From assembly GCA_947646735.1 (NCBI GenBank), contig CANTFK010000024.1, positions 186,001-250,000 of the forward strand: a stretch of 64,000 nt of DNA, written 5' to 3'. Positions 10,778-55,272 of this stretch are shown piece after piece. Both the position numbers and the translations under genes were made by a program. Position 1 is the first letter of the stretch. Each line of letters begins with the position of its first letter. Below the pieces are notes generated by a model. It made no database searches, was not told the origin of the DNA, and saw only the letters and a list, made by a program, of their open reading frames with translations. The DNA comes from Peronospora farinosa (lineage: Eukaryota > Oomycota > Peronosporomycetes > Peronosporales > Peronosporaceae).

Positions 10778-12010
10778 ATGAATCTTGCATACGCCTTCGC
10801 GGTTTTAGCAACGTGTTTTGTCACGTCGGTTGTCTCCGTCTTTGACAATGGCACACAAGTTAAAATGTCGACGGAATATACCCATGTCCAAGCAAAAATA
10901 CGCGATGGCGTCGTGAAAAGTCGAGGCGTCAATCTTGGCGGATGGCTGGTAGCTGAGCATTGGATGACGGCAAACGCAGCGTTTTGGCAAGGTATCGAGA
11001 GTCGCTTTGCTAACTCTGGTGAGTATACGGCAATCACGAAAGCGACAAGTCTAAGCAGTATTCACTCCAAGCTAAGCGATCACCACGCCACCTTCATCTC
11101 CGAGAGTGATATCGAGCAGATCGCGGCAGCAGGACTCAATACAGTTCGAGTGCCTGTGGGTTTTTGGATCCTAGGCTACGACAACCACGACCCAGCGAAC
11201 CAGCGCGAGTGGGAAGCTTACACTCGAGGAACGATCGTGCACTTGGACCATCTCATCCGAAGCTGGGCTAAGAAACACAATGTGGCGGTGCTGGTCAGCT
11301 TGCACGCTGCCAAAGGTTCGCAGAATGGTGCTGACCATTCATCACCTTCAAGTCCAGGACATACGTTTTGGAGCCAATACTCAGAGAATGTTGCCAACAC
11401 TATCGAGGTGGCAAGGTTTCTTGCCGATCGATACCTTCACGACGAGGCATTCCTCGGCATTGGTCTTTTAAACGAGCCCAACGGCGGTACGGACGAAAAA
11501 GTGCTGTACCAGTACTACATGGACGCGTATCGAGCCGTGCGGTCAACTGGAAGCGATTGCGTGCTAAGTGTTATGCCAATGCTGCAAAAACAGAGCCCCG
11601 ACGAGATGGTGGGATTTATGACAATGCCAGAGTTTTCAAACGTCTGGGTCGAATGGCACCCATACTTTATCTGGGGCTTCGAGCACACATCGGACGAGCA
11701 GTTAGTGAACGTGGCTATTCAACGCGACTACAAGGAGCGCGTGGCCAAGTGGAACGAGCGTCCGAAACATAATCGACTGTTCATTGGTGAGTGGAGCCTG
11801 GCTACGTCTTCCAACATACGCCACAACAACCCCAATTTGTTCTACAAATTTGCAATAGAGCAGCTCAAGGTGCACGAACAAGCGGAAGGAGGTTGGACTC
11901 TCTGGACGTGGAAGGCAACAGGAGACGCCACTAGCGACGTGAAGGCCTGGTCTTTGCAGAAACTCCTTGCAGACGACCGAATTGGCAACATTCTGCGCAT
12001 GAATTCGTAG
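10778..12010 (+). CDS. Secreted exo-beta-1,3-glucanase (glycoside hydrolase family 5)
   Basis: 410 codons, no intron. The N-terminus (MNLAYAFAVLATCFVTSVVS) is a typical signal peptide. KSRGVNLGGWLVAEHWM (residues 47-63) is the start of GH5 exo-1,3-glucanases; NTVRVPVGFWILG follows at 121-133. The acid/base Glu is in LNEPN (E233) and the nucleophile Glu in IGEWS (E338); HPYF at 294-297 and WTLWTWK near the end complete the active-site set. Family knowledge: these enzymes release glucose from beta-1,3-glucan, a main oomycete wall polymer, so wall remodelling or reserve mobilisation is the likely role. Length is about that of single-domain fungal enzymes; no GPI signal or extra domain is seen. 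The upstream ATG context (CATCCTAGCGATGA) and the signal peptide support this start. Confidence 0.95.
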   Translation: MNLAYAFAVLATCFVTSVVSVFDNGTQVKMSTEYTHVQAKIRDGVVKSRGVNLGGWLVAEHWMTANAAFWQGIESRFANSGEYTAITKATSLSSIHSKLSDHHATFISESDIEQIAAAGLNTVRVPVGFWILGYDNHDPANQREWEAYTRGTIVHLDHLIRSWAKKHNVAVLVSLHAAKGSQNGADHSSPSSPGHTFWSQYSENVANTIEVARFLADRYLHDEAFLGIGLLNEPNGGTDEKVLYQYYMDAYRAVRSTGSDCVLSVMPMLQKQSPDEMVGFMTMPEFSNVWVEWHPYFIWGFEHTSDEQLVNVAIQRDYKERVAKWNERPKHNRLFIGEWSLATSSNIRHNNPNLFYKFAIEQLKVHEQAEGGWTLWTWKATGDATSDVKAWSLQKLLADDRIGNILRMNS

Positions 12011-12337: not shown

Positions 12338-15300
12338 ATGACGCAGCAATGGCTTGCCAAGGCTGTGCGCCATAGTGTGCGTTGTAATGTTGCTGCACGT
12401 GTAGCCCTCTCTCGTCTTAACGTCTCTAGTAACGTGGCGTCACGTTGGACGCGTGCCTTGTCGTCTACACCACATCCAAGTGAGACTTTTATGACGGGCA
12501 CGAATAATGCCTATGTAGAGGCGATGTATTCTAGCTGGAAGAGTGACCCCAAGAGGTAAATAATACAATCATTCCTGCTGGCCGACAAAACGACCATCAT
12601 TCAGAAGTATACACATACATTTTAACTTTTTACTTGTGTATACACGTTTTGTCATTTATTATTTTAGTGTCCACACATCATGGGACGTATACTTTCGTCA
12701 GATTGAGAGTGGGAGCGTACCTGGTGAAGCCTTTATTCCGCCACCTACTATCCAGCAAGGAGTGACACCCGTCCGTTCTGTCGGTGGTACTGAAGCGTTG
12801 TCGTCTAGCGAGTTGAATGAAGCTCTGGGATTGAGTTATCTGATCCGAGCATACCAAGTGCGTGGCCATGAGGCCGCCAATCTGGACCCACTGGAATTAC
12901 ATGAACGTCCGGATCTACCCGAACTGGATATCCGGATGTACGGGTTTAAGGAAAAGGACTTGGACCGCGTGATTGTTATTCCCAAGAACTTGTACGTGAT
13001 TCTTCTTTAAGGATGCGTATACTGTATAGTGTTTACAATGAAGAGAGGGGCTGACGTAGTTGTACTGCTGTAGTTCGTCGGGTGTCTCAGGCTTCTTGGA
13101 AGAGCTGGCTGGTGGCAATAACAGTATGACGCTGGGCGAAATCATTCATCGCCTCAAGGAAACATATTGCAGCTCAATTGGAGTGGTAAGGAGTAGCCAT
13201 TTGCTAACAATAAGGTGGCTGTGCAAAGATGTTGACGTGTTTTTTTACTTCTCGGCACCTTTTTTGCAGCAATACATGCACATATTGGATCGTGAGCAGT
13301 GCAACTGGATCCGTACAAAAATGGAGCATTTGGTAAAGCACGAAGAGTCGAAGGAGAAAAAGTTACACATTTTAGAGAGACTGGCTTTTTCCGTGGTGTT
13401 TGAGCGCTTCTTGGGCAACAAATATAACACGACCAAGCGTTTCGGTCTGGATGGTGCAGAGAGTCTTATCCCCGGTCTGAAGTTCATGATTGACCGCGGC
13501 ACGGAGCTTGGCATGGAGCATTTGGTGATCGGCATGCCTCACCGTGGCCGACTTAATGTGCTGTCGAATGTGATCCGTAAGCCGATCCAGCAAATTTTTA
13601 AGGAGTTTCAGGGGACGCACATTGACGTCGAGTCTTACAATGATCGCGATGTGGAAGACTGGTCAAACTCTGGTGATGTCAAGTACCACCTTGGCACGTC
13701 GTATGACCGCACGTACCCAGATGGCCGTCAAGTGCACCTTTCGCTGGTGGCCAACCCGTCCCACCTAGAGGCTGTTGACCCTGTTGTGGTCGGCAAGGTT
13801 CGTGCGAAGCAGTTTTACCTTGGCAACGATGCGGATGCCGAGAAGAAGGTTATGCCGCTGTTGCTGCACGGCGATGCCGCCTTTAGCGGCCAGGGTGTTG
13901 TTTACGAAACGATGCATCTATCCGGCCTTGACAACTACGACACGGGTGGTACCGTGCACGTGGTGGTAAACAACCAGATTGGTTTTACGACCGACCCAAA
14001 GAACTCTCGTTCATCGCAGTACTGCACAGACCTAGGCAAGGCCATGGATGTGCCTATCTTGCACGTAAACAGTGACGATCCGGTGTCAGTGGTGAAGGTG
14101 TTCGAGTTTGCGGCCGAGTGGCGCCAGAAATGGCGGTCGGATGCGATCATCAACCTGACGTGCTACCGTCGCTTCGGCCACAACGAAGTGGACAATCCGT
14201 TCTTTACTCAGCCACTTATGTACAAGAAGATTGGTCAGATGAAGTCGGTTCTTGACACGTTCGTTGACCAGCAGGTGGCTGCTGGCACTGCCACTAAGGA
14301 GGAGTGTGATGCCATTGTGTCCAAGGTATGGAACTTTTTCCAGACAACGTTTGATGAGACGGAGAAGTGGGAGGACACTAAGCAGAGCGACTGGCTTGCG
14401 AACCGTTGGGACTCATTCAAGAGTCCCAACCAGCAATCTCGTATTCGGCCTACGGGTGTGCACATGAGCGTACTGAAGCACGTTGGAGAGAAGATCAGTA
14501 CCGTTACCCCAGGTTTCAAGGTTAACCGCCAGTTGGACCGCATCATGGGAGCCAAGAAGAGTGCGATCGAGTCGGGCGAAGGTATCGATTGGGGAACTGC
14601 TGAGGCTTTAGCCTGGGGTACGTTGCTGCTCGAGGGCAACCACGTCCGTATCAGTGGACAGGATGTAGAACGTGGAACGTTCAGCCATCGCCACGCTGTG
14701 TTACACGACCAGGAGACCAACGAGGTGTTTGTGCCCTTGAATCACTTGGCCACGAAGACGATCCCTTCAGCTCCTCTGGAGTACAGGACTCCTGGTGGTG
14801 GCACCGTCCCGGACACGCAGGCCGAGTTCGTGGCATCCAACAGTTCCCTGTCGGAATTCGGTGTGCTGGGCTTTGAGCTCGGCTACTCGCTGGAGAACCC
14901 CAATGCTTTGGTCATGTGGGAAGCCCAGTTTGGTGACTTTGCTAACGGTGCCCAGATCATGATCGATCAGTTCCTGAGCGCTGGGGAGGATAAATGGATG
15001 CGACAGTCGGGTCTTGTGATGTTGCTGCCCCACGGTTATGAGGGTCAAGGCGCCGAGCATTCGTCGTGCCGCGTGGAGCGCTATCTGCAAAGCACCGATG
15101 ATGACCCGAACGTCGTGCCACTCATGGATGAAGAGAACCGCATGCAGATTCAGCACACGAACTGGCAGGTGGTGTACTGCTCTACACCCGCCCAGTACTT
15201 CCACGTATTGCGTCGTCAGATCCACCGTGATTTCCGTAAACCGCTGATCTCGGTGCAGCCAAAGCACTTGCTTCGTCTGCGTCAGGCTTCGTCGAAGATG

Positions 15301-15747
15301 GAGGACATGGCTGAGGGCACAAAATTCCAGCGTTTGATCCCCGAAGTGGCCCCAGAAAAGCTAGTCGAGGACGACAAGGTGAAGCGAGTGGTCTTCTGCT
15401 CGGGCAAGATCTACTACGAGCTGGCCCAGGAACGTGACGAGAAAAACATTAAGGACGTGGCGATTGTGCGGGTGGAGCAGATCGCCCCGTTCCCGTTCGA
15501 CAAGGTAGCAGAACAGGCCGCTCGCTACCCGAACGCCGACATTAAGTGGGTGCAGGAGGAGCCGTTGAACATGGGCTTCTGGACGTACGTGTCGCCGCGC
15601 ATCGAGACGGCGCTGACGCAGTTAAACAGTGACTCTCGCAGGCCTGCATTCATTGGCCGTGCCCCTGCCGCGGCACCGGCTACGGGCTACAACGCTGTGC
15701 ACCAGATCGAGCAGGACCGCATCATCAAGAAGGCGTTAAAGGTGTAA
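12338..15747 (+). CDS. OGDH: 2-oxoglutarate dehydrogenase E1 component, mitochondrial (4 exons)
   Basis: Exons 12338-12555, 12668-12991, 13074-13185 and 13270-15747 join to 3132 bases: 1043 residues plus stop, close to the roughly 1000 residues usual for the family. The introns are GTAAAT..TTTTAG, GTACGT..CTGTAG and GTAAGG..TTGCAG. The Arg/Ser/Ala-rich, acid-poor N-terminus is a mitochondrial presequence. It is followed by the E1 N-terminal motif (YVEAMYSSWKSDP), GMPHRGRLNVLSNV (about 306), the ThDP-binding block HGDAAFSGQG (about 418) to NNQIGFTTDP (about 453), the transketolase-type pyrimidine domain (LEGNHVRISGQDVERGTF) and the C-terminal domain ending TGYNAVHQIEQDRI. The enzyme decarboxylates 2-oxoglutarate in the TCA cycle as part of the OGDH complex. 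The splice site of intron 2 is inferred from frame; intron 3 has no in-frame stop. Confidence 0.96.
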
Positions 15748-19487: not shown

Positions 19488-20275
19488 TGGCTGGATCCAT
19501 CGGCAGCCCTGCCGTTGGTGCCATGTTGCTCTCTCTTAGCGGAGTCGACCAACATGCAACCATCGCCAAGTTCATACAACATGAGCTTGACGAAGTTGTA
19601 AAGAACTCACCTTGCTACAGGAGCAAGGTTCTCAACAGGTTGACCTGTTGAGAGAACAAGGCGCTCAACAAGCTAACTTGTTGATGCAGCAGGGTGCTCA
19701 ACAGTCTGAAATGTTGAGACAACAGCAGACTAGTGCTGAATCTGCCGGGTCGGCGTATACACGTCGACCCGAGTCCTTGAAGATTGATGTCTACAAGTAC
19801 AAGGCAGCCGAAAGTGACTCCTTGTTAAGATGGTTCGTCGAACTCGACGATGCCATTGAGGCTCGTCGCATCGATGACAGTGCGATGAAGGTCAAGTTCG
19901 CCATGTCGAACTTGACAGGACGTGCCAAAACTTGGCCCTTAGGGCTCAAACTGCATGACCCATACGTTATCCCAACGTATGATGTCTTCAAGGCGCGGCT
20001 CAAACACAGGTTTGAACCGCCTCGCGCCGAATTCAGGGCTCGGGCTGAGCTCCTAGATTTGAAACAGGGTATACGTGATATACACGCTTACGCCCAACAC
20101 GTACGATACCTCGTTAGTTGTATCGTGCTGAACCCAATCGATGAACACACGCAGGTTGCTGTGTTCATCAAGGGTCTGACAGATGGTCCCGTCAAGACCC
20201 GTATGTTCCGCTTGGAACTAGAATCGCTGGATCAAGCGATCTCTGCAGCGGAACAGGAGGACTTTAGCCTACAAC
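19488..20275 (+). pseudogene. gag of element B, 5' part
   Basis: From ATG at 19488 (MAGSIGSPAVGAM) the frame is lost near 19600 by a one-base change and resumes at 19612 in a Gln-rich coiled-coil stretch (LREQGAQQANLLMQQG). The capsid-like region follows (LRWFVELDDAIEARR, FAMSNLTGRAKTW, LKQGIRDIHAY), homologous to the A gag ([13 protein letters not shown]). It stops at 20275 where A-outer is inserted; the rest of gag is at 35790-36102. In the virtual uninterrupted gene the codons run straight through the target ACAAC. Confidence 0.85.
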
Positions 20276-20617
20276 TGTAATGGGCTACATTACACATATA
20301 GCATTAACACAAATAAACAATTACATGTGTAGGCAGGTGCTGGGCCCGAATAGCGGGCACAGCGTGGTAATTTATTATTGGTTTATTATTGGGCCTAAAG
20401 TCCCCAATATGGACCAATGATAAATCAACCTGAAATTGTGTGGTTCCCGAAAGGCGGGAACACTGTCGTATTTATTACGACTAAAATCTTCGTAATTAGT
20501 ACGAATTAAAACCAAAATAAAAATCAGAGTTAAATTTACTTAATACCTAATACTTGGGCTTGAGTCTTCCTCAAGCGCACGTGTAAGCTAGTGACGGTAC
20601 GTTCTAGCCCCGTTACA
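20276..20617 (+). repeat. LTR L1 (originally the 5' LTR of A-outer)
   Basis: 342 bp, starting TGTAATGGGCTACATTACA and ending CCCCGTTACA; TGTAA/TTACA are inverted ends. Left-end variants match L4, while one right-end variant (ACTTGGGC) matches L2, as expected if L1 and L3 exchanged partners at the inversion. It now lies before the PBS and gag of A-inner. Confidence 0.9.
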
Positions 20618-20643: not shown

Positions 20644-21693
20644 ATGCCCGAGTTTGGGATGAGCGAATCGTCGTACTTTGACGCTCCAGATTTATTTCTG
20701 GAGCACGCGACCTTCCCCCATCTTACTGGTGTTGAGTGGGATGCCCTTAATCGCCTCGCGGCGATATCGGGAGAGGCATTCGTCGCGTCGCTGATGAGAT
20801 CAGCGACCCCTGACGCGCAACGTCTCGCCATACATGAGTTTATGGCACGCGAGCTCGCCGAATCCAACCGGCGAGGCTTAACTCCCTCGCGCCCTTCACG
20901 TAATGAGGCCGTGAAGATGGAAACCTCCTCCTACTCTGGAGAAGGTAAGGACCGGTTATCGCTGAACCGGTGGTTCCGAGAAGTTGATATCGCCATCGCC
21001 TCGAGACTTCTTGAGGCTCCACAGGCGAAGGTCAACTTTCTTCTTTCCCGCCTCACCGGGAAGGCCAAGGAGTGGGCCCTTGGTAAACTCGTTGTGGACG
21101 AGCACGCATTTCCCACCTTGGATACCATCCAGGACGATCTCCGTCTTGCCTTCGAGCCACCACAAGAGGAGAAACTGGTGCGATCAAGATTCCTGTCGAT
21201 GCGACAGGGTAAAATGGCGATGCGCGACTACGTACAGATGGCTAGGCATCTGGCGTCGTGTATTATCACGCACCCCATGGACATGTACACACAGGTGAAT
21301 GTCTTTGTGGATGGTATGCGTGAGGGGCAGACCCGCTTATCGCTGGAGCGCGCCGAGCCTGCCACATTGGAGGAGGCATTCGCCATCGCACTCCGTGAAG
21401 ACTTTAGGGTCACAAAGGCCTATGCCAAACCCTCGGTCGTCAGCGTTCCCCGGCCTTCTGGCCCAGAACCTATGGAGATCGACGTTATTGAGTCGTCGGG
21501 TGACCGGCGACGTGTCTTTCATCATAAAGGTGACGCTCGCACCGGGCGTCCAATGGTTTGCTTTCGTTGTCGCAAGCCAGGACATCGCGCGGCAGAGTGC
21601 CGTGCGCCAGCCCCATTATCGGTGCAAGTAGTGGACGCCCATCATGAGGGTGCTGTACCGGCCGCACGTCCAAAAAACGGTCGGGACCAGTAG
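20644..21693 (+). CDS. Gag polyprotein, A-inner
   Basis: 349 codons starting 27 bp after the LTR. N-terminal helical region, then the retrotransposon gag core ([47 protein letters not shown]) at roughly residues 100-255, and a single CCHC zinc knuckle [14 protein letters not shown] near residue 310, followed by a basic tail. Gag packages element RNA and forms the particle in the cytoplasm. The copy in A-outer (29885-30934, minus) has the same amino-acid sequence, so both copies are young or this gene was recently constrained. Pol begins 45 bp downstream in another frame, so pol is either a separate translation or reached by reinitiation or frameshift; the sequence does not decide. Confidence 0.9.
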
Positions 21694-21737: not shown

Positions 21738-24700
21738 GTGGCAGCCCAACCTTCCAGTCCTCCTGCGCTACGCGCACGGTTAAATGCCACCACTACGAGT
21801 GGTGATTCACGTCTGATTATTGTCAGTTTACATGTCGCCGGCGTCCGGCGACCTCTGCGAGCACTCCTGGACTCAGGAGCAACAAACAATTTCTTTCGTG
21901 AATCTTGTTTGTCGATGCTGCCTCCCAGCATTCAGGTCCGTGAGGGACCTGGCCAAGTCGTCGTCAAGTTGGCTGACGGGAAACCACACCGCGTATCGCG
22001 GCGCGAAGTGTCGTTGCCGTATACGTTTGATGGCTTTCGCAGTAATGATGATTTCTTGGTGATCGCGATGAATTATGCATTCGATTGCATACTGGGCATG
22101 CCATGGTTGGCACGTTATAAGCCCCAGATCGACTGGTTAGCCAGATCAGTGAGACGTCGACGCAAGTTCGATGTCAGTGAAGTGTTTACCCATCTCTTGG
22201 TATCTCCAAGTGACTGGCCAAACGTCACAGTCGTGGATCGCGATTCCACGACGTTGGCGGTGCACAGAGCGAGCGATGGCCCTCTCTGCACTGCTTGTGC
22301 TGTTCTTCGGGACACAAGTGACAGTGACTCCTCGCTACAGAGCGAAGAGGACAACGAGGACGACGCGGTCGAGCAGGGGTTCCCGCGCGTCATTAATGCG
22401 GTTGAACAGGGGTTCCCGCACGTGAATGCAGTGGTTGAACCGGGGTTCCCATCTGCACCTATTGTGGTCGAGCAGGGGCTCCCACAAGGGCATTGTGGCG
22501 ACGAGCAAGAGCTCGCCAGCGAGTGTGACGTGGACGGACAGGAGTCCCCACGCGAGAGCATGATGGTCGAACCGGGGTTCCCATCATCACCCACTGTGGT
22601 CGAACCGAGGTTCCCACATGGGCATATTGTGGTTGAGCAGGGGCTCCCACGCGGGTTTATGGCGGCCGAGCAGGAGCTCCCGCATCAAGTGTCGACGGTC
22701 GAGTTTGGGGTACTCCCGTCCAGTGTTTCCGGCATCTTGGATGACGACATCCAGTGCCTAGAGGGGGGTGATGGTTTATCACCTGACTGCGGTTCGCCAG
22801 CTTCGAGTAGTGACTCGAAGCACGATGGGGACAACAGCACCGAGAATTTAGCGTTGGAATGTGTCCACGCTATCGTGTACGTGGAAGGGAGTCCACAAAG
22901 GCGCCAATATATCGAGGTCGAGAGTCCTCCTCGTAATGCGTCTTCCATTACAAGTCTTCCAGGGCTTTCCTGGAAGCATTTCCTACGTGACCTTAAGGGA
23001 GGCACTGTGGAACAAGTGTGTCTAATCACCAACGAGGTGGTTACCGTGGCAAACGAGGAGCATATGGCGCGTCCTCGAAGCGCTGAGCCGAAGTCTGCGC
23101 GTGAAGAAAGGTTTGCATCACAGTCATGGGAGGCCCTGCGAGAGTCTGGTAACCCCGTCTACGACATTGCTCGTGAGTATGCAGACGTGTTCCCGGACAA
23201 GATCCCGGCTGAACTTCCTGCGGACCGCGGTGTTCGGCACGAGATTGATCTCGTGCCAGGGTCGAAGTATTGTGTGACACGGCAGTGGCCGTTGCCTCGA
23301 GATCAAGTCGAAGCTATTGACGCATTCTTCGAAGGCCGCCGCAAAGCGGGTCATGTGCGGGAGAGTATCTCACCACATTCGAGTCCAACCTTCTGCGTGA
23401 AGAAGGCTACGGGAGGCTGGCGGATAGTGCATGCGTTCAATAAGTTGAATGATGCCACTATTCCTGCGCAAACGCCAATTCCCAGGAAGGACATGGTGCT
23501 GAATTCCATGTCAGGTAGTGTCATCTTCAGTGCCATCGACTTGACCGATGGCTTTTACCAGATTTTGATGCGCCCGAGCGATATCCCACTCACCGCGGTG
23601 AGCACCCCGAGTGGCATGTTATGGGAGTGGCTGGTAATGCCACAAGGGTTGAAGAACGCTCCGGCCACTTTCAATCGCATGGTGTCTCAAGTGTTGAGAC
23701 CTCTTCGGAACTTTGCCCCAAGTTATTTTGACGATATCTTCGTCCATAGTCGCGCCGAGGGCAACCTCAACGATGTCCAAGTTCACCTTCAACACCTGAA
23801 GCAAGTGTTTCAAGTTATGCGGGACAACAAGTTGTACGCGAATCTCAAGAAGTGTGTATTTTGTGCACCGGAGATCATCCGGTGTTAGGTTGCTATGTGA
23901 GTAAATCGGGAGTTCGAGCTGATCCAGAGAAGGTGTCGTCCATCTGTTCTTGGCCCACGCCCAAGAACCCTACGGAGTTGCGCCAGTGGCTCGGCTTGGC
24001 TAATTATTTGCACAAGTATACGAAGGATTATGCTGGTTCTATCCAGCCTTTGTCGTCACTCTTGAAGAAAGACGCCACGTGGTTGTGGCGTCCCGAGCAC
24101 CAAGCAGCCTTCGAAGCAGTAAAGAAGAGCCTAGCGTCAGCGCCAGTCCTGGTCCTACCAGACGATTCCAAGCCGTTCCACGTGGTTTGCGACGCCAGTG
24201 ATTTTGCAATCGGTTGTGCCCTCATGCAATTTGATGATGAGGGCCGTGAACGAGTCGTGAGTTATCAGTCGCGACAGATGAAGCCAGCTGAGAAGAACTA
24301 TCCGGTTCACGACAAGGTGTTATTAGCGATGCGCTATGCACTCATCAAGTTTCGCGTGCATCTCCTTGGTGAAAGTACGTTTGCTTTGTACACCGATCAT
24401 GCATCGCTGCGCACAGCGATGAAGAGCCCACACCTGTCCCAACGGATGGCACGATGGCTCTCATTCTTCTCTGAGTACAACTTCGTCGTGCATTACAAGC
24501 CAGGCAAGACCAATATTCTCGCTGACGCCTTGTCACGACGTCCCGACTACGATCCTCGGACTGCTCTGAGTCGCCAGGCTACTGATGACGAGGACGATGA
24601 TGACCGATGTGCAATGTGTGTATCGCTGAACTTAACTCGGGTTACACCCGAGCCGTGTTTATTTGATGAGATCGTCGCAGCGTACAAGGTTGACTCAGAT

Positions 24701-27007
24701 TATGCAGACATTATCGAGTATCTGCGTGCTCCCAGCGATGCTGCCCTGGGAGCATTATCCCGTACCAAGCGCGACCATATTCATCGATACAGTTTAGATG
24801 GCGATTTGCTTCTGTATAGCATCGACCAATTCGATGCTCCTCGCACGGTGATTGCCAATGACATGGATTTGCGTGCAAGAATCATTCACGAGTATCACGA
24901 TGCTCCTGCTGGCGGCCATTTAGGCCGCGAAAAGACTTTCGCGGCTGTGTCTCGAGACTTCTTCTGGCCCCACATGTATAAGTGGGTACGCAACTGGATC
25001 CGAACGTGCGAAATATGCCAGCGTGTGAAGCCATCTCCATCGTCACAGGCTCCCTTGCGATCGTTGCCAATTGCAGCAGAGGCCTGGAGATCAGTTTTGA
25101 TGGACTTTATCTTCGGGCTTGCGCCCGATAGCCAAGCTCGAACGGGCATCTTGGTCTTTGTTGACAGATTCAGCAAGATGACACATCTCGTGCCTGTTCA
25201 CGCTAAGGTCACCGCGGCAGAGACCGCGGCGCACTTCATCGACGCGGTGTTCCGTCATCATGGCCTTCCAGAAAACATTGTTTCGGACCGTGATCCGCGA
25301 TTTACGTCCGCATTTTGGACATCACTTTTCGAGCTCCTCGGGACAAAACTGCTGATGTCGACGGCAGCCCATCCGGAAACGGATGGGCAGACCGAGCGCG
25401 TGAACCGGGTCCTCGAAGACGTTCTTCGGAGTTATGCTACGTCATTTACAAGTTGGAGTGCATTTTTACCACTCGCTGAGTTCGCACTCAACAACGCCGT
25501 ACACGCGTCAACAGGGTTGACGCCATTTTTTGTGAATTCGGCTCGTCACCCTCGTGTTCCTACTGTCCTGGCCGTGGGGCGACCCACAACACCTAGTGGC
25601 TCCACTCTGGGGGGGGATAAAGGTGATAAACAAGGATCGAGTGCAGCTCACGGTATTTTGAGCGCGAATGCAGTAACACGATCCAAGGCAAAGACGGCCA
25701 TTTTGACGCCATCAGACGTGGCGTCCCCATTCGCTCGATGGACTGCGCAGACATTGATTGACCCGTCTTCGGGTAAGCGTTCCCCTACCGCCAACTACGC
25801 GCCGATTGAGTCGGCGCGACCAATTGATGACATGGCCGTGTCGGAATTTATACTCCAACGTCAAGCCATCACCAGGTTTGTACGCGACGCACTACAAACT
25901 GCTGTAGACCTACAGAAGGAGAACGCTGACAAACATGGACGAAAGAACATGAGCAAGTTTGAGAAAGGTGACCGTGTATTATTATCGACGGAAGGTTTAA
26001 GGGATTCTGCGGTCACTAATCTGGGCGCGAGCAAACTCGCGCCACGCTTCATCGGTCCATTCAAGGTTCTGAAGGCAATTGGCGACGCTTATACACTCGA
26101 CGTCCCCTCTTCACTGCGACTCCACCCGACATTCTATGTCGGGCGGCTGAAGGAATATCGTCCGGCTACGCTTCACGGTTTGGCTCCGACGCCGGCTTCA
26201 GGGGTTCGTAAGTCGAACGGCCTTCCCGTCGCGCTCGACGCGCCGATGACATGGGGCGGGGTCTCGATCCCGTCTGAACCTGACCAAGCATCTGGCGCTC
26301 CAGAATCCTTATCCGCTCGAGCAGTTCACGGTTCGACTGCCGGGTCTCACTCGAAGTCTTCTCCGCCTGGGCAGCACGTTCACTGGCAGCCTCAGCCTCC
26401 AGCCGAGCATCGGCAGCTATATTCACGGCCTGATCAACATCGTCCTGAGCAACCAGGACGCCAGCTCTACCACCGCGAGGGCCCTCCTCCGCTTGTTGAT
26501 GCGGAGGGACAGGTGCGCTGGATTGTAGACCGCATTGTGGGTCACGAGGACCCTCCACAACCATTACTGCAGTCGGCTCATGAGAAGCGTGCGGTTCCAT
26601 CCGTGCGTAGGTACCGAGTACGTTGGCTTGGATTCCCTCCCGAGCAGGATACATGGGAACCACGTTCCTCGCTCCTTCGTGACGTTCCAGATGTGGTTCT
26701 GTCGTATGAAGCCACGAAGTCGGACTATTCCAAGGCGGGCGAGCACGCGAACGCTCTCGTGACAAACGAGAGCGGTAAGGAGATTCACGTTGTCGGGAAC
26801 GGGAACGATGACCAGAACGAGAACGATGTCGCGAACGAGAACGACGCCGTGAACGAGAACGTCGCGGTGAATACACATCACGATTGCGAGGCGAGAATCG
26901 CGAAGCAGGACGGACAAGCGAACGTGTCGCTGCCCTGCGCTGATGATCCCGCGGAGATTGACTCCGCTGTCGCGAGTGGTGCTGCCAGCGAGGCGCACCA
27001 CGAATAA
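21738..27007 (+). pseudogene. Pol polyprotein, A-inner (PR-RT-RNaseH-IN-chromodomain), one frameshift
   Basis: The first open part (21738-23888) holds the aspartic protease ([11 protein letters not shown] near 21870), a linker of VEQGFP-type repeats (22366-22680), and RT with YFDD at 23724-23735. The frame breaks at about 23875 and resumes to 27007: RNase H (FHVVCDASDFAIGC, LYTDHASLRTA), integrase zinc finger (H..H..CEICQRVK), DDE core (MDFIFGL, SDRDPRF, DGQTERV), a GPF module (PRFIGPFKV) and a chromodomain ([19 protein letters not shown]) near 26590-26680. The C-terminal tail is Asn/Glu-rich ([16 protein letters not shown]). Apart from the frameshift the protein looks complete. The last 842 bp overlap the antisense ORF. 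Confidence 0.9.
22366..22690 (+). repeat. VEQGFP-type degenerate repeats in the protease-RT linker
   Basis: About nine imperfect units of 30-45 bp coding V(E/V)xGFP plus spacer, for example [11 protein letters not shown] and [11 protein letters not shown], between protease and RT. A-outer has one extra block of 44 codons (starting [11 protein letters not shown]), giving it a 132-bp longer linker at 28776-29221 (minus). The repeat is acidic and Pro-rich and probably unstructured. Confidence 0.8.
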
Positions 27008-27593
27008 CTGCGCTTCTCCGTTCGCCCAGACTTCGCTCATACTTTGCAATCCAACTTCGTTCGCGATCGCTGAGTGGACACTCAGCGATGTGTCGTCGCC
27101 ATTCGTCATGAGTTGGGCGTGGAGTCGAGTCACAAGATTGGCATCCTTCATTGACATGGACGAAGCAGAGACGGTCCTCATTCCAAGCTTCCTCACACAC
27201 TCTTTCGCGTAGCGCGCCGATGGAGTGATCGGCGCGAAGTTCCTCTCGATTGGTGAGCCATAACTGGAAGTTGCTACCATCCTCGAGCATCCGATTCCAA
27301 CGTTGGATGAAGGCGCACCAAGAACGTTGTAGAGCTTCATGCTCGATTCCATCAAGACCTTTCCCGCGCAGTTTTCGAAATCGGCGGAAGTATTCCCGCA
27401 TCATGTCCAGTGAGTCCGGAGCGTGAGCTCCGGACAAGTCGTACAGCGACCAAGGTATGAGCTGCCGCGCCATGATGCTGGTTGATGCATTCCCGCTGAT
27501 GTATCCTTGGGCGTCCTGCTGGATTGGGTGTTGGGTCTCCAGACATTGCTTGTTCGTTTGTGAGCAAAGGGTTTTCGACAGTTGAGCACTCAC
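26166..27593 (-). CDS. Antisense ORF (aORF) of A-inner: Trp/Cys domain, Arg-Ser domain, coiled coil
   Basis: 475 codons, intact, starting 33 bp inside the 3' LTR and running against pol, overlapping its last 842 bp. Residues about 60-190: helical region with WCAFIQRWNRM, FQLWLTNREEL and CFVHVNEGCQSC, with a possible zinc site C151-x2-C154...H168-x3-C172. Residues 202-285: strongly Arg/Ser-rich ([17 protein letters not shown]), like RS domains of RNA-binding proteins. Residues 385-440: Ala/Glu-rich coiled coil. In the overlap its third codon base faces the second base of pol codons. Element B has a counterpart in the same relative frame. Function is unknown to me; a regulatory or RNA-handling role is only a guess. 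A chance open frame remains possible, but conservation in B argues against it. Confidence 0.65.
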   Translation of the reverse strand: MSAQLSKTLCSQTNKQCLETQHPIQQDAQGYISGNASTSIMARQLIPWSLYDLSGAHAPDSLDMMREYFRRFRKLRGKGLDGIEHEALQRSWCAFIQRWNRMLEDGSNFQLWLTNREELRADHSIGALRERVCEEAWNEDRLCFVHVNEGCQSCDSTPRPTHDEWRRHIAECPLSDRERSWIAKYERSLGERRSAVIRGAPRWQHHSRQRSQSPRDHQRRAATRSLVRPASRFSPRNRDVYSPRRSRSRRRSRSRHRSRSGHRSRSRQRESPYRSRLSRERSRARPPWNSPTSWLHTTEPHLERHEGARNVVPMYPAREGIQANVLGTYARMEPHASHEPTAVMVVEGPRDPQCGLQSSAPVPPHQQAEEGPRGGRAGVLVAQDDVDQAVNIAADARLEAEAASERAAQAEKTSSETRQSNRELLERIRILERQMLGQVQTGSRPRPMSSARRARREGRSTYEPLKPASEPNREA

Positions 27594-27625: not shown

Positions 27626-27966
27626 TGTAATGGGCTACATTACACAATAGTATTAACATGAATAAACAATTACATATGTAGGCAGGTGCTGGGCCCGAAT
27701 AGCGGGCACAGCGTGGTAATTTATTATTGGTTTATTATTGGGCCTAAAGTCCCCAATATGGACCAATGATAAATCAACCTGAAATTGTGTGGTTCCCGAA
27801 AGGCGGGAACACTGTCGTATTTATTACGACTAAAATCTTCGTAATTAGTACGAATTAAAACCAAAATAAAAATCAGAGTTAAATTTACTTAATACCTAAT
27901 ACTTGGGCTTGAGTCTTCCTCAAGCGCGCGTGTAAGCTAGTGACGGTACGTTCTAGCCCCGTTACA
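27626..27966 (+). repeat. LTR L2 (3' LTR of A-inner)
   Basis: 341 bp, TGTAATGGGC to CCCCGTTACA. It is followed by ATTGG (27967-27971), the complement of the CCAAT found after L3, which marks the insertion target of A-inner inside the A-outer pol. Confidence 0.9.
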
Positions 27967-29840
27967 ATTGGCGTTTGCGCAGGAATAGTGGCATCATTCA
28001 ACTTATTGAACGCATGCACTATCCGCCAGCCTCCCGTAGCCTTCTTCACGCAGAAGGTTGGACTCGAATGTGGAGAGATACTCTACCGCACATGACCCGC
28101 TTTGCGGCGGCCTTCGAAGAATGCGTCAATAGCTTCGACTTGATCTCGAGGCAACGGCCACTGACGTGTCACACAATACTTCGACCCTGGCACGAGATCA
28201 ATCTCGTGCCGAACACCGCGGTCCGCAGGAAGTTCAGCCGGGATCTTGTCCGGGAACACGTCTGCATACTCACGAGCAATGTCGTAGACGGGGTTACCAG
28301 ACTCTCGCAGGGTCTCCCATGACTGTGATGCAAACCTTTCTTCACGCGCAGACTTCGGCTCAGCGCTTCGAGGACGCGCCATATGCTCCTCGTTTGCCAC
28401 GGTAACCACCTCGTTGGTGATTAGACACACTTGTTCCACAGTGCTTCCCTTAAGGTCACGTAGGAAATGCTTCCAGGAAAGCCCTGGAAGACTTGTAATG
28501 GAAGACGCATTACGAGGAGGACTCTCGACCTCGATATATTGGCGCCTTTGTGGACTCCCTTCCACGTACACGATAGCGTGGACACATTCCAACGCTAAAT
28601 TCTCGGTGCTGTTGTCCCCATCGTGCTTCGAGTCACTACTCGAAGCTGGCGAACCGCAGTCAGGTGATAAACCATCACCCCCCTCTAGGCACTGGATGTC
28701 GTCATCCAAGATGCCGGAAACACTGGACGGGAGTACCCCAAACTCGACCGTCGACACTTGATGCGGGAGCTCCTGCTCGGCCGCCATAAACCCGCGTGGG
28801 AGCCCCTGCTCAACCACAGTATGCCCATGTGGGAACCTCGGTTCGACCACAGTGGGTGATGATGGGAACCCCGGTTCGACCATCATGCTCTCGCGTGGGG
28901 ACTCCTGTCCGTCCACGTTGTACTCGTGTGGGAGCCCCTGCTCGACCACAATATGCCCATGTGGGAACCTCGGTTCGACCACAGTGGGTGATGATGGGAA
29001 CCCCGGTTCGACCATCATGCTCTCGCGTGAGGACTCCTGTCCGTCCACGTCACACTCGCTGGCGAGCTCTTGCTCGTCGCCACAATGCCCTTGTGGGAGC
29101 CCCTGCTCGACCACAATAGGTGCAGATGGGAACCCCGGTTCAACCACTGCATTCACGTGCGGGAACCCCTGTTCAACCGCATTAATGACGCGCGGGAACC
29201 CCTGCTCGACCGCGTCGTCCTCGTTGTCCTCTTCGCTCTGTAGCGAGGAGTCACTGTCACTTGTGTCCCGAAGAACAGCACAAGCAGTGCAGAGAGGGCC
29301 ATCGCTCGCTCTGTGCACCGCCAACGTCGTGGAATCGCGATCCACGACTGTGACGTTTGGCCAGTCACTTGGAGATACCAAGAGATGGGTAAACACTTCA
29401 CTGACATCGAACTTGCGTCGACGTCTCACTGATCTGGCTAACCAGTCGATCTGGGGCTTATAACGTGCCAACCATGGCATGCCCAGTATGCAATCGAATG
29501 CATAATTCATCGCGATCACCAAGAAATCATCATTACTGCGAAAGCCATCAAACGTATACGGCAACGACACTTCGCGCCGCGATACGCGGTGTGGTTTTCC
29601 GTCAGCCAACTTGACGACGACTTGTCCAGGTCCATCACGGACCTGAATGCTGGGAGGCAGCATCGACAAACAAGATTCACGAAAGAAATTGTTTGTTGCT
29701 CCTGAGTCCAGGAGTGTTCGCAGAGGTCGCCGGACGCCGGCGACATGTAAACTGACAATAATCAGACGTGAATCACCACTCGTAGTGGTGGCATTTAACC
29801 GTGCGCGTAGCGCAGGAGGACTGGAAGGTTGGGCTGCCAC
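27967..29840 (-). pseudogene. Pol 5' half of A-outer (protease, linker, start of RT), inverted
   Basis: From 29840 leftward this reads protease ([11 protein letters not shown]), the expanded VEQGFP linker, and the pre-RT region to GRRKAGHVR, where a GAG-to-TAG change gives a stop at 28083-28085. RT sequence continues ([17 protein letters not shown]) to 27967 and breaks exactly at CCAAT. The continuation is at 31299 on the plus strand ([12 protein letters not shown]). It is the same gene as 31299-34830, separated by A-inner and the inversion. Confidence 0.88.
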
Positions 29841-29884
29841 CGGGGGACCCGGACCTCCGTTCCAACCAGTAGGGCGCCCTGCAC

Positions 29885-30934
29885 CTACTGGTCCCGACCG
29901 TTTTTTGGACGTGCGGCCGGTACAGCACCCTCATGATGGGCGTCCACTACTTGCACCGATAATGGGGCTGGCGCACGGCACTCTGCCGCGCGATGTCCTG
30001 GCTTGCGACAACGAAAGCAAACCATTGGACGCCCGGTGCGAGCGTCACCTTTATGATGAAAGACACGTCGCCGGTCACCCGACGACTCAATAACGTCGAT
30101 CTCCATAGGTTCTGGGCCAGAAGGCCGGGGAACGCTGACGACCGAGGGTTTGGCATAGGCCTTTGTGACCCTAAAGTCTTCACGGAGTGCGATGGCGAAT
30201 GCCTCCTCCAATGTGGCAGGCTCGGCGCGCTCCAACGATAAGCGGGTCTGCCCCTCACGCATACCATCCACAAAGACATTCACCTGTGTGTACATGTCCA
30301 TGGGGTGCGTGATAATACACGACGCCAGATGCCTAGCCATCTGTACGTAGTCGCGCATCGCCATTTTACCCTGTCGCATCGACAGGAATCTTGATCGCAC
30401 CAGTTTCTCCTCTTGTGGTGGCTCGAAGGCAAGACGGAGATCGTCCTGGATGGTATCCAAGGTGGGAAATGCGTGCTCGTCCACAACGAGTTTACCAAGG
30501 GCCCACTCCTTGGCCTTCCCGGTGAGGCGGGAAAGAAGAAAGTTGACCTTCGCCTGTGGAGCCTCAAGAAGTCTCGAGGCGATGGCGATATCAACTTCTC
30601 GGAACCACCGGTTCAGCGATAACCGGTCCTTACCTTCTCCAGAGTAGGAGGAGGTTTCCATCTTCACGGCCTCATTACGTGAAGGGCGCGAGGGAGTTAA
30701 GCCTCGCCGGTTGGATTCGGCGAGCTCGCGTGCCATAAACTCATGTATGGCGAGACGTTGCGCGTCAGGGGTCGCTGATCTCATCAGCGACGCGACGAAT
30801 GCCTCTCCCGATATCGCCGCGAGGCGATTAAGGGCATCCCACTCAACACCAGTAAGATGGGGGAAGGTCGCGTGCTCCAGAAATAAGTCTGGAGCGTCAA
30901 AGTACGACGATTCGCTCATCCCAAACTCGGGCAT
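29885..30934 (-). CDS. Gag polyprotein, A-outer (on the inverted segment)
   Basis: 349 codons, amino-acid identical to the A-inner gag, with the same gag core and [14 protein letters not shown] knuckle. It starts 27 bp from L3 with the PBS between. The frame is intact, but the rest of the element is broken, so any role would be in trans. A few silent changes separate it from the A-inner copy (for example at the codon near 30238). Confidence 0.85.
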
Positions 30935-30960
30935 AGGAAGGACTACAAAGTGCTACCAGG

Positions 30961-31298
30961 TGTAACGGGGCTAGAACGTACCGTCACTAACTTACACGCG
31001 CGCTTGAGGAAGACTCAAGCCCGAGTATTAGGTATTAAGTAAATTTAACTCTGATTTTTATTTTGGTTTTAATTCGTACTAATTACGAAGATTTTAGTCG
31101 TAATAAATACGACAGTGTTCCCGCCTTTCGGGAACCACACAATTTCAGGTTGATTTATCATTGGTCCATATTGGGGACTTTAGGCCCAATAATAAACCAA
31201 TGATAAATTACCACGCTGTGCCCGCTATTCGGGCCCAGCACCTGCCTACATATGTAATTGTTTATTCATATTAATACTATGTAATGTAGCCCATTACA
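30961..31298 (-). repeat. LTR L3 (originally the 5' LTR of A-inner)
   Basis: 338 bp on the minus strand. Its left-end variants (TAGTATTAATATG) pair it with L2, while ACTCGGGC agrees with L4, again consistent with an exchange with L1. CCAAT (31299-31303) adjoins it. It now serves as neighbour to the PBS and gag of A-outer. Confidence 0.9.
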
Positions 31299-34200
31299 CC
31301 AATTCCCAGGAAGGACATGGTGCTGAATTCCATGTCAGGTAGTGTCATCTTCAGTGCCATCGACTTGATCGATGGCTTTTACCAGATTTTGATGCGCCCG
31401 AGCGATATCCCACTCACCGCGGTGAGTACCCCGAGTGGCATGTTATGGGAGTGGATGGTAATGCCACAAGGGTTGAAGAACGCTCCGGCCACTTTCAATC
31501 GCATGGCGTCTCAAGTGTTGAGACCTCTTCGGAACTTTGCCCCAAGTTATTTTGACGCTATCTTCGTCCATAGTCGCGCCGAGGGCAACCTCAACGATGT
31601 CCAAGTTCACCTTCAACACCTGAAGCAAGTGTTTCAAGTTATGCGGGACAACAAGTTGTACGCGAATCTCAAGAAGTGTGTATTTTGTGCACCGGAATCA
31701 TCCGGTGTTACGTTGCTATGTGAGTAAATCGGGAGTTTGAGCTGATCCAGAGAAGGTGTCGTCCATCTGTTCTTGGCCCACGCCCAAGAACCCTACGGAG
31801 TTGCGCCAGTGGCTCGGCTTGGCTAATTATTTGCACAAGTATACAAAGGATTATGCTGGTTCTATCCAGCCTTTGTCGTCACTCTTGAAGAAAGACGCCA
31901 CGTGGTTGTGGCGTCCCGAGCACCAAGCAGCCTTCGAAGCAGTAAAGAAGAGCCTAGCGTCAGCGCCAGTCCTGGTCCTACCAGACGATTCCAAGCCGTT
32001 CCACGTGGTTTGCGACGCCAGTGATTTTGCAATCGGCTGTGCCCTCATGCAATTTGATGATGAGGGCCGTGAACGAGTCGTGAGTTATCAGTCGCGACAG
32101 ATGAAGCCAGCTGAGAAGAACTATCCGGTTCACGACAAGGTGTTATTAGCGATGCGCTATGCACTCATCAAGTTTCGCGTGCATCTCCTTGGTGAAAGTA
32201 CGTTTGCTTTGTACACCGATCATGCATCGCTGCGCACAGCGATGAAGAGCCCACACCTGTCCCAACGGATGGCACGATGGCTCTCATTCTTCTCTGAGTA
32301 CAACTTCGTCGTGCATTACAAGCCAGGCAAGACCAATATTCTCGCTGACGCCTTGTCACGACGTCCCGACTACGATCCTCGGACTGCTCTGAGTCGCCAG
32401 GCTACTGATGACGAGGACGATGATGACCGATGTGCAATGTGTGTATCGCTGAACTTAACTCGGGTTACACCCGAGCCGTGTTTATTTGATGAGATCGTCG
32501 CAGCGTACAAGGTTGACTCAGATTATGCAGACATTATCGAGTATCTGCGTGCTCCCAGCGATGCTGCCCTGGGAGCATTATCCCGTACCAAGCGCGACCA
32601 TATTCATCGATACAGTTTAGATGGCGATTTGCTTCTGTATAGCATCGACCAATTCGATGCTCCTCGCACGGTGATTGCCAATGACATGGATTTGCGTGCA
32701 AGAATCATTCACGAGTATCACGATGCTCCTGCTGGCGGCCATTTAGGCCGCGAAAAGACTTTCGCGGCTGTGTCTCGAGACTTCTTCTGGCCCCACATGT
32801 ATAAGTGGGTACGCAACTGGATCCGAACGTGCGAAATATGCCAGCGTGTGAAGCCATCTCCATCGTCACAGGCTCCCTTGCGATCGTTGCCAATTGCAGC
32901 AGAGGCCTGGAGATCAGTTTTGATGGACTTTATCTTCGGGCTTGCGCCCGATAGCCAAGCTCGAACGGGCATCTTGGTCTTTGTTGACAGATTCAGCAAG
33001 ATGACACATCTCGTGCCTGTTCACGCTAAGGTCACCGCGGCAGAGACCGCGGCGCACTTCATCGACGCGGTGTTCCGTCATCATGGCCTTCCATAAAACA
33101 TTGTTTCGGACCGTGATCCGCGATTTACGTCCGCATTTTGGACATCACTTTTCGAGCTCCTCGGGACAAAACTGCTGATGTCGACGGCAGCCCATCCGGA
33201 AACGGATGGGCAGACCGAGCGCGTGAACCGAGTCCTCGAAGATGTTCTTCGGAGTTATGCTACGTCATTTACAAGTTGGAGTGCATTTTTACCACTCGCT
33301 GAGTTCGCACTCAACAACGCCGTACACGCGTCAACAGGGTTGACGCCATTTTTTGTGAATTCGGCTCGTCACCCTCGTGTTCCTACTGTCCTGGCCGTGG
33401 GGCGACCAACAACACCTAGTGGCTCCACTCTGGGGGGGGATAAAGGTGATAAACAAGGATCGAGTGCAGATCACGGTATTTTGAGCGCGAATGCAGTAAC
33501 ACGATCCAAGGCAAAGACGGCCATTTTGACGCCATCAGACGTGGCGTCCCCATTCGATCGATGGACTGCGCAGACATTGATTGACCCGTCTTCGGGTAAG
33601 CGTTCCCCTACCGCCAACTACGCGCCGATTGAGTCGGCGCGACCAATTGATGACATGGCCGTGTCGGAATTTATACTCCAACGTCAAGCCATCACCAGGT
33701 TTGTACGCGACGCACTACAAACTGCTGTAGACCAACAGAAGGAGAACGCTGACAAACATGGAAGAAAGAACATGAGCAAGTTTGAGAAAGGTGACCGTGT
33801 ATTATTATCGACGGAAGGTTTAAGGGATTCTGCGGTCACTAATCTGGGCGCGAGCAAACTCGCGCCACGCTTCATCGGTCCATTCAAGGTTCTGAAGGCA
33901 ATTGGCGACGCTTATACACTCGACGTCCCCTCTTCACTGCGACTCCACCCGACATTCTATGTCGGGCGGCTGAAGGAATATCGTCCGGCTACGCTTCACG
34001 GTTTGGCTCCGACGCCGGCTTCAGGCGCTCGTAAGTCGAACGGCCTTCCCGTCGCGCTCGACGCGCCGATGACATGGGGCGGGGTCTCGATCCCGTCTGA
34101 ACCTGACCAAGCATCTGGCTCTCCAGAATCCTTATCCGCTCGAGCAGTTCACGGTTCGACTGGCGGGTTTCACTCGAAGTCTTCTCCGCCTGGGCAGCAC

Positions 34201-34830
34201 GTTCACTGGCAGCCTCAGCCTCCAGCCGAGCATCGGCAGCTATATTCACGGCCTGATCAACATCGTCCTGAGCAACCAGGACGCCAGCTCTACCACCGCG
34301 AGGGCCCTCCTCCGCTTGTTGATGCGGAGGGACAGGTGCGCTGGATTGTAGACCGCATTGTGGGTCACGAGGACCCTCCACAACCATTACTGCAGTCGGC
34401 TCATGAGAAGCGTGCGGTTCCATCCGTGCGTAGGTACCGAGTACGTTGGCTTGGATTCCCTACCGAGCAGGATACATGGGAACCACGTTCCTCGCTCCTT
34501 CGTGACGTTCCAGATGTGGTTCTGTCGTATGAAGCCACGAAGTCGGACTATTCCAAGGCGGGCGAGCACGCGAACGCTCTCGTGACAAACGAGAGCGGTA
34601 AGGAGATTCACGTTGTCGGGAACGGGAACGATGACCAGAACGAGAACGATGTCGCGAACGAGAACGACGCCGTGAACGAGAACGTCGCGGTGAATACATA
34701 TCACGATTGCGAGGCGAGAATCGCGAAGCAGGACGGACAAGCGAACGTGTCGCTGCCCTGCGCTGATGATCCCGCGGAGATTGACTCCGCTGTCGCGAGT
34801 GGTGCTGCCAGCGAGGCGCACCACGAATAA
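31299..34830 (+). pseudogene. Pol 3' part of A-outer (RT to chromodomain), disabled
   Basis: It continues the RT from [12 protein letters not shown]. Lesions: the RT catalytic box reads YFDA instead of YFDD (GCT at 31557-31559); a frameshift near 31695 at the same spot as in A-inner; TGA at 31738-31740 where A-inner has CGA; and TAA at 33094-33096 in the integrase between the first and second catalytic Asp. The remaining RNase H, integrase, GPF module, chromodomain and [12 protein letters not shown] tail are nearly identical to A-inner. The copy cannot make active RT. Confidence 0.9.
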
Positions 34831-35415
34831 CTGCGCTTCTCCGTTCGCCCAGACTTCGCTCATACTTTGCAATCCAACTTCGTTCGCGATCGCTGAGTGG
34901 ACACTCAGCGATGTGTCGTCGCCATTCGTCATGAGTTGGGCGTGGAGTCGAGTCACAAGATCGGCATCCTTCATTGACATGGACGAAGCAGAGACGGTCC
35001 TCATTCCAAGCTTCCTCACACACTCTTTCGCGTAGCGCGCCGATGGAGTGATCGGCGCGAAGTTCCTCTCGATTGGCGAGCCATAACTGGAAGTTGCTAC
35101 CATCCTCGAGCATCCGATTCCAACGTTGGATGAAGGCGCACCAAGAACGTTGTAGAGCTTCATGCTCGATTCCATCAAGACCTTTCCCGCGCAGTTTTCG
35201 AAATCGGCGGAAGTATTCCTGCATCATGTCCAGTGAGTCCGGAGCGTGAGCTCCGGACAAGTCGTACAGCGACCAAGGTATGAGCTGCCGCGCCATGATG
35301 CTGGTTGATGCATTCCCGCTGATGTATCTTGGGCGTCCTGCTGGATTGGGTGTTGGGTCTCCAGACATTGCTTATTCGTTTGTGGGCGAAGGGTTTTCGA
35401 CAGTTGAGCACTCAC
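33989..35415 (-). pseudogene. Antisense ORF of A-outer, frameshifted
   Basis: This is the counterpart of the 475-codon ORF of A-inner. It starts at 35415 (MSAQLSKTLRP), again 33 bp inside the LTR at 35448, but single-base indels near 35330 and 34440 split it into open pieces 35368-34460 (302 codons with the Trp/Cys and Arg/Ser parts) and 34423-33989 (144 codons, coiled coil). The amino-acid sequence of the pieces is almost unchanged. Confidence 0.65.
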
Positions 35416-39100: not shown

Positions 39101-40884
39101 TAAGTTCGTGCGCAAGTACGTGCGTGCTTGCGAGGTGTGTCAAAGAGTGAAGCCTAGTCCTTCACTCCGTGCACCGTTGCAGCCTCTACCTGTTCCGGCA
39201 GAGTGCTGGGAGTCCGTATCAATGGACTTCGTCTTTGGGTTTCCCAAATACGCTCACGGGAATAATGGTATTCTCGAGATTGTAGACAGGTTCAGCAAGA
39301 TGGTTCATCTTTTTTCTGTACCTGAATCGATCATAGTAGAGGGCTTTGCTCGAGTGTTTATCGATACAATCTTTCGATTGCACGGTCTACCTCGTTAACT
39401 TTGTCCGATAGGGACTCCCGGTTCACGGCTAAGTTTTGGCGTTTTGTGTTCCAAGCACTTGGAACACGGCTCACAATGTCTACTTCTGACCATCCAGAAG
39501 CTGATGGTCAGACTGAACGCGCCAATCGCGTCCTCGAAGAGATTCTTCGAGGGTACGACCACTCGTTTACGAGTTGGAGTGAGTTCTTGTCGATGGTCGA
39601 ATTCGCCATCATCAACTCAGTGCATGCGTCCACGGCGCATACACCATTCTAAGTGAATGTGTTTCGCCATCCACGTGTCCCCACCTTAGTAGAGGGTAAC
39701 TCTATCTTAAGGAGGGGGGAACTCGCTCGAGCGAGAACCAATCTGGCTCTTGCTATTCACGCGACGATGTTATGGTCGACGCGAAAGTAACTGAAGTCGT
39801 ACCATTCGACTTCGGTAAAGAGGAAGAAAGTAAGAGCGATGACGCTCTTACTGATAACGATGCTGGAGATATCAGCATCGTTCGAGGTATCACAAGTGAG
39901 AACAGTAATGTTCTCGCTGAATTAGTAACCGATATCTCTGCAGTGCATTCACAATGCACTGCAGCCAAAAGCAACGAGTCAGCTGAGGATTTATTGCTGA
40001 CTCGTGAAGCGGTAGTCCGTTTCGTGCAAGACTCCATCGCAGAAGCGGTGGATAAGCAAAAGCGAAATGCAGACAATAATGAAAGGGCAAATGCTCAGAC
40101 ATTTATTGAATGTGATTTTGTTTTACTGTCAACAGTAAACCTACCTAAACATGTAATGACTAACGTGGGCAGCAATAAATTGTTGCACAAGTACATCGGC
40201 CTGTTTCGTGTATTGCGCCGCCTAGGCAACCCATACACAATACAGTTGCCACACAGGATGCGTACGCATCCTACGTTTTACGTGGTACGTCTTCGTCCGT
40301 ACGTTCAGTACGCGGCTTCTTCGAACGACGAAGATAGCCATTATTTTCAAGAATCCCCTTCAGATTCTTGTTGTCACGAAACAGATTCGATACCTGGTCG
40401 TGTAGAGATGAGATCTTCCCATGATATTGGACGATCTTTTGACAAGCTGTCGCCAGCTCGTTACTTAGAGAATGAAGCCGCCGTTCATTCTCCAATAGTG
40501 CGACAGCATTGTTTGCCCGAGACTTCTCATGGTCAAACCCAAGCTGTCGCACAATGTCCTCTAAGCGGCGACGCTTATTCCGTTCGTGATCAATATCACA
40601 ACGTAGCTCACGAGTTACACGGGCAAACCCGTCTAACTCAGCAGCCAAGTCCGATGAAAGAATCGGACAGGGTTTTCCCTCCACCACCGCATCCGCTGGT
40701 GGACTCCCATGGTGGGAAGCGCTTCCTTGTCGTACGCTTACTAAATCACCGCGAGGTGAAGGGACGTCGGACGATTTATCTCGTCCGATGGCGCGGCTAT
40801 CCGCCTTCGGCGGATAGCTGGGAACCTCGAGCCCAACTGATGGCTGACGTTCTTGGCCTTGTCGAACGGTACACCCGATGGTGA
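36200..40884 (+). pseudogene. Pol of element B, heavily mutated
   Basis: Protease at 36230-36540 with the active-site triad altered to DCGA (36270-36281) and a nearby stop; RT 37083-38100 with YFDD retained at 37883-37894 but stops at the KW.LMP.GL block; RNase H 38110-38700 (FHVVCDASDFAIGC, YTDHESLRTA) with a stop near 38422; integrase 38930-39660 (CEVCQRVK, MDFVFGF, SDRDSRF, DGQTERA) with stops near 38835, 39398 and 39652. The C-terminal 370-codon stretch 39772-40884 is open and carries the GPF-like module (KYIGLFRVL) and chromodomain (YLVRWRGYPPSADSWEP). 36540-37080 is too decayed to assign. Confidence 0.85.
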
Positions 40885-49240: not shown

Positions 49241-49384
49241 CAATAAGAATTTTTGCAGCAAATTCGAAGTGAACGTATACGACAAGCTCAAGATGAGGAA
49301 TGTTGGATCGCTAACCTAAATTTTTTTTTCTGATTGGTGATATAACGAATCTCAGTATGGAAGAAGCGAATTCATGCGCCAAGA

Positions 49385-52116: not shown

Positions 52117-52289
52117 GGTGTTGCGACGCCTCGCGGTTGAAAACGCGATCCGGATAGAGCAGCAAGTGTAGCGTCTTCGGGATCGGAAGACCATCCGTCA
52201 TACTCAGAGTCAGGCGAAGGCGAGGGACACGTTTTGCGTGTCCTTTTAGCTTTCGACGAAACATTGGGTCGCGTTGTAATAACGGATCG

Positions 52290-55271: not shown

Positions 55272-55272
55272 T

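Follow-up and report, generated by a model that had tools for sequence, protein, structure and literature searches.

Ty3/gypsy elements and antisense reading frames in the window

The window analyzed here is a 64,000-nucleotide stretch of the Peronospora farinosa genome (contig CANTFK010000024.1), in which LTR retrotransposons of four families, designated A to D, lie alongside apparent host genes, namely a GH5 cellulase-like ORF (10778–12010) and a 2-oxoglutarate dehydrogenase E1-like ORF of 895 aa (13060–15747). On contig C55 of the same genome, TPI and GAPDH domains were found within one 606-aa open frame; TPI–GAPDH fusion is a typical stramenopile trait.

The family A element contains, on the forward strand, a gag gene (20644–21693; Retrotrans_gag E 2.5e-8, with a zinc knuckle) and a pol region (21738–27007) in two overlapping frames (21738–23888 and 23852–27007). 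The second frame encodes RNase H, integrase, an SH3-like domain and a chromodomain (30.4 bits), and the RT region of A pol is also present in another locus (L007). The 3' LTR (27626–27966, forward) is 341 bp in length and bounded by TGTAAT...GTTACA. On the minus strand, an ORF of 475 aa (26166–27593) runs tail-to-tail with pol, as the initial annotation had described; it overlaps the end of pol (27007) by about 840 bp. The ORF had also been thought to start some 33 bp inside the 3' LTR, which proved wrong: its start lies 32 bp short of the LTR, in the internal region. Moreover, the N-terminus of this copy is a false one, owing to a single inserted base pair. The ATG at which the frame begins in related copies matches window positions 27544–27546 (MSGDP...), and the insertion splits it from the long frame in the window copy.

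A total of 22 A copies were compared, comprising 20 copies taken whole from 40 listed places and the two copies in the window. The full antisense ORF had 459 aa in 10 of these copies and 457 aa in one more. From an alternative ATG located 22 codons upstream, 8 of the 22 copies run into a stop codon (codon 21), and thus the downstream ATG is the likelier start. The antisense ORF of the second A copy in the window (33989–35371, minus strand) is broken by one in-frame stop, between 33989–34459 and 34460–35371. Among the 20 fetched copies, 11 had a full-length antisense ORF and 13 a full-length gag frame, the latter located through an N-terminal tag; tagged pol pieces lay in more than one frame in 12, for which a natural pol frameshift is possible. 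Family A is recent: LTR pairs were 0.3–2.4% apart in the 18 copies with both LTRs measurable, and six of the ten copies with an LTR divergence of at most 0.6% have kept the antisense ORF.

The A locus itself is rearranged and nested. Between the two A copies (27957–31700), gag and part of pol (28083–30934) are inverted, and a direct pol fragment follows from about 31290. A 33-bp repeat in A pol (22365–22679 and 28765–29226) codes for a VVEPGFP-type repeat whose copy number varies among copies. The gag of a different Ty3/gypsy element (19591–20280) extends up to the 5' LTR of the first A copy, by which it was apparently interrupted.

The B element in the window retains a pol end with an SH3-like domain and a chromodomain (39700–40884, forward; 42.3 bits). 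Its antisense gene is split by the insertion of a C element into a broken C-terminal part (40274–41708, minus strand; residues 88–588 of intact B, spread over two frames and interrupted by stops) and an N-terminal part beyond the insertion (55271–55513, minus strand; residues 9–89). The segment 40271–41707 had been read as a single ORF, which is incorrect, as it contains at least two in-frame stops (40934–40936 and 41312–41314) and a frame change near 41601–41626. On the other hand, the proposal that the B frame was continuous across the landing site of C was confirmed, since the flanking pieces correspond to residues 9–89 and 88–123 of intact B. In other B copies the antisense ORF has 588 aa, and it overlaps pol by several hundred bases.

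The C element has an integrase with a chromodomain-like end (49346–50896, forward), for which the Chromo score was 24.2 bits against a cut-off of 25.1. Its 3' LTR (53969–55271, forward; TGTGG...CCACA) is accompanied by a 4-bp target-site duplication, TCCG on both sides. An antisense gene is present in C as predicted (51083–53883, minus strand), yet in the window it is broken into five pieces, no part of which lies within pol; in another copy (L048) it is open over 867 aa. A fragment of the antisense gene of a second C copy (residues 1–416) was found at 450–1751, also on the minus strand. Inside the C antisense gene, an 18-bp tandem repeat (52408–52923) codes for an ARSGTS-type repeat, the length of which varies among C copies (for example, L048 and L049).

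Searching the genome with C, and then with E, uncovered two further families, E and F, with antisense ORFs of 718 aa (L050) and 741 aa (L059), respectively. Their layout is like that of C: the end of pol on one strand, followed by the antisense ORF on the other. In none of C, E and F does the antisense ORF overlap pol. A sense-strand gene in the same stretch of C and E could be ruled out, since all three sense frames contained 17–25 stops per copy. For family D, the window contains a stub of only 68 aa (59947–60153, minus strand); longer frames in D-like matches elsewhere in the genome are putative counterparts of it.

Open-frame length and shared layout

The genome searched comprised 46.85 Mb in 274 contigs; only the best candidates were scored and at most about 150 matches listed per search, and the match counts are therefore lower bounds. 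Matched stretches free of stops were found in at least 16 of the 150 listed matches for A (488–502 aa from stop to stop), at least 13 of 152 for B (560–657 aa) and at least 15 of 152 for C (905–973 aa from stop to stop). At least seven of the 150 listed D-like relatives had open frames of 444–500 aa whose matched part was free of stops, and at least six F frames of 705–771 aa were open among the 149 listed matches of C, E and F combined. The convergent layout was common to L028, L029, L048, L049, L050 and L059, and all five families (A, B, C, E and F) position and orient the antisense ORF alike, its 5' end adjoining the 3' LTR.

We compared the observed open lengths with first-order Markov shuffles (1000 per ORF). 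None of the 1000 shuffles reached the observed length for the whole ORF of A, B, C, E or F. When only the 600 nt of A that lie outside pol were considered, one shuffle in 1000 did so.

Selection on the antisense frame

Because mutations in young copies mostly arose after insertion, the key test is the stretch outside pol compared between related families. For A and its 64% relative L055, pN/pS outside pol was 0.41 (0.30–0.54), compared with 0.98–1.39 in four control frames and 0.49 in the frame that shares wobble positions with the ORF. Inside the pol overlap, the ratio was 0.85 (0.66–1.11) and not significant. Similarly, the comparison of B with its 59% relative L058 gave 0.53 (0.43–0.67) outside the pol overlap, with four control frames at 0.93–1.15 and the wobble-sharing frame at 0.63; the ORF frame contained no stop, compared with 13–36 stops in the other five frames. 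With the close relative L057, the B ratio was 0.68 (0.40–1.23) and not significant. Between C and E, pN/pS was 0.53 overall and 0.38 over the C-terminal 259 codons, values that should be read with saturated dS in mind.

Within-family ratios were obtained from 22 A, 12 B, 11 C and 4 E copies, with L045 left out as it occupies the same place as L048. The ratio within A was 0.82 (0.44–1.68) outside pol, which was not significant, and 1.02 where the frame overlaps pol. Among the B copies it was 0.65 (0.47–0.93), where the control frames (0.68–1.14) overlapped the ORF frame. Lower ratios were observed within C (0.55, 0.47–0.66; wobble-sharing frame 0.57) and E (0.37, 0.28–0.51; wobble-sharing frame 0.41). 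It should be noted that the wobble-sharing frame was always low (0.41–0.63), though rich in stops in C, E and B; in C and E it had about 18 and 23 stops per copy, respectively, compared with about one or fewer in the ORF frame. The dN/dS comparison proposed by the initial annotation, carried out in this genome, gave ratios below 1 between families outside pol, whereas the results within A, in the A overlap and for B with L057 were not significant. On this basis, purifying selection between related families acts on the antisense frame where it does not overlap pol, and a chance ORF could be ruled out by this selection together with the shuffles.

Relationships among the antisense proteins

A C-terminal domain with 36–57% identity is common to the antisense proteins of C, E and F; it contains an ALWEATH core, an RKxRRSR stretch and a CDLDIxLDP motif and is preceded by a Ser/Arg-rich sequence and, according to a crude heptad score, a coiled-coil-like segment. 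As judged from this sequence similarity, the three proteins are clearly homologous. The proteins of A and B share a region with W..FI and CxxC only weakly, and each has a coiled-coil-like segment towards the C-terminus by the same crude score. The shared A–B motifs noted at first thus persisted in weak form: the A–B score was reached in 63 of 2000 shuffles; with the relatives L055 and L058 standing in, the counts were 33, 573 and 364 of 2000. Profile–profile comparison, which had also been proposed, gave an hhalign P of 0.013 with a probability of 3.3% for A–B. Taken together, the sequences are no more than suggestive of homology between the A and B proteins.

The other motifs on which a relationship among all four families had been based were absent. 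The score of the supposed common N-terminus of B and D was reached in 1627 of 2000 shuffles, and that of the motif attributed to B and C in 730 of 2000. Sequence comparison detected no homology for A–C, B–C or B–D, and a single antisense protein family spanning A to D via shared motifs found no support in the shuffle tests, the A–B link being weak and B–C and B–D undetected.

Pfam and NCBIfam searches with the antisense proteins returned no match above the curated cut-offs, including none to Gag, capsid or nucleocapsid, and bZIP gave no match at E up to 1 in six antisense proteins. In the Pfam search they matched no plant family. No relative of the antisense proteins was confirmed in viral contigs, nor any relative of the C/E/F domain in prokaryote genomes. 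For the C/E domain, a sequence search of PDB with an E limit of 10 found nothing, and the best match of the A protein (E 0.31) was not credible. AlphaFold models were poor (mean pLDDT 45 and 48), and no fold is therefore claimed; a fold search with the low-confidence C/E/F model gave 44 matches at E up to 10, the best at 3.9 and none at 0.001, and was uninformative.

The host elements and their relation to known systems

The host elements are Ty3/gypsy chromodomain elements, the chromodomains of E and F having been judged by eye. Pol pieces of A and B were 49–72% identical (32% at the chromodomain end), and C was 68% identical to E and 64% to F over different parts of the integrase, compared with 25–31% identity between the pol of A or B and that of C. 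Thus, the antisense genes occur in two pol groups. The order of Gag, RT, RNase H, integrase and chromodomain is that of Ty3/gypsy chromoviruses, to which the antisense gene is added here.

Plant Ty3/gypsy elements of the Tat lineage (Ogre, Grande and their kin) carry a selected minus-strand ORF between pol and the 3' LTR; they are not known to have a chromodomain. The oomycete elements resemble them in having a minus-strand ORF in this position and differ in their chromodomains and, in A and B, in the overlap of the ORF with pol. Because of the chromodomains we do not file them as Tat elements, which they resemble in carrying an antisense accessory gene. Antisense protein genes near the 3' LTR are also represented by HBZ of HTLV-1 and ASP of HIV-1. 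In contrast with these, the proteins described here match neither bZIP nor any other known domain and belong to another class of element, with a predicted minus-strand transcript.

Interpretation and alternative explanations

On the basis of the layout and the pN/pS ratios, the ambisense plan with a selected antisense protein gene that the initial annotation had suggested is supported for A, B and C/E/F. We conclude, with a probability of roughly 0.88, that these Ty3/gypsy elements carry a true minus-strand accessory protein gene, convergent with gag-pol and beginning next to the 3' LTR. The fact that only 11 of 22 A copies kept the full antisense frame counts against a coding gene. For expression, a minus-strand transcript would have to begin within the 3' LTR or close to it. 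Few sites emerged when oomycete initiator-like and TATA-like motifs were sought in a crude scan: the C stretch had two initiator-like sites, both on its antisense strand, the D stretch had one TATA-like site per strand, and the A and B stretches had neither kind.

The product might be a nuclear protein, largely disordered and self-associating, that would bind RNA or chromatin and tune how its own element is expressed or replicated. Stretches that are basic or rich in Ser/Arg, together with the coiled-coil-like segments, point to such a role, whereas the near-neutral charge of the E and F proteins disfavors nucleic-acid binding. We regard this regulator as a tentative proposal, with the odds somewhat against it. 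Rather less likely is a structural or replication role for the same real gene, as a second assembly protein or nucleic-acid chaperone. Coiled-coil-like segments and basic stretches occur in structural proteins too, and the CxxC of A and B would fit; the lack of a Gag, capsid or nucleocapsid match and the presence of gag with a zinc knuckle on the sense strand speak against this role, neither being decisive.

It appears improbable that the ORF represents a host gene taken up by the elements, or another, unrelated element that landed in reverse orientation close to the 3' end. In favor of this, no common origin could be detected for the A/B, C/E/F and D proteins, but the same position and orientation recur in five families, and every listed match that was read adjoins the pol of an element. 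Even less probable is an antisense transcript acting as a regulatory RNA against pol, with the protein being secondary: a minus-strand transcript of A or B would pair with the 3' end of pol, but selection acts on the amino acids of the antisense frame, and the ORF of C, E and F does not overlap pol at all. Finally, that the frame is open by chance or through pol codon usage, with no product, is hardly credible and already contradicted by the between-family ratios: the A and B frame does overlap pol by several hundred bases, the ratio within A is not below 1 and the A overlap seems unconstrained (0.85), but C has about 867 codons open without any overlap, A, B, C and E show selection outside any overlap, and shuffles did not reach the observed lengths.

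Returning to the accessory gene, it is conceivable, if rather doubtful, that it is ancestral to the chromodomain Ty3/gypsy elements of this lineage. The A/B, C/E/F and D proteins would then be fast-diverging versions of one nuclear regulator, and the elements would form an ambisense clade independent of plant Tat and of the retroviral antisense genes.

Plant Tat elements and a few retroviruses are known to carry selected antisense genes, and the novelty of the oomycete genes described here is provisional. Since family A is recent, its transcripts, protein and function are directly testable. For annotators, such antisense ORFs should be treated as genes of the elements and not as host genes. 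The occurrence of antisense genes in at least five families and two pol groups of one genome suggests that convergent antisense accessory genes may arise or persist more widely in LTR elements.
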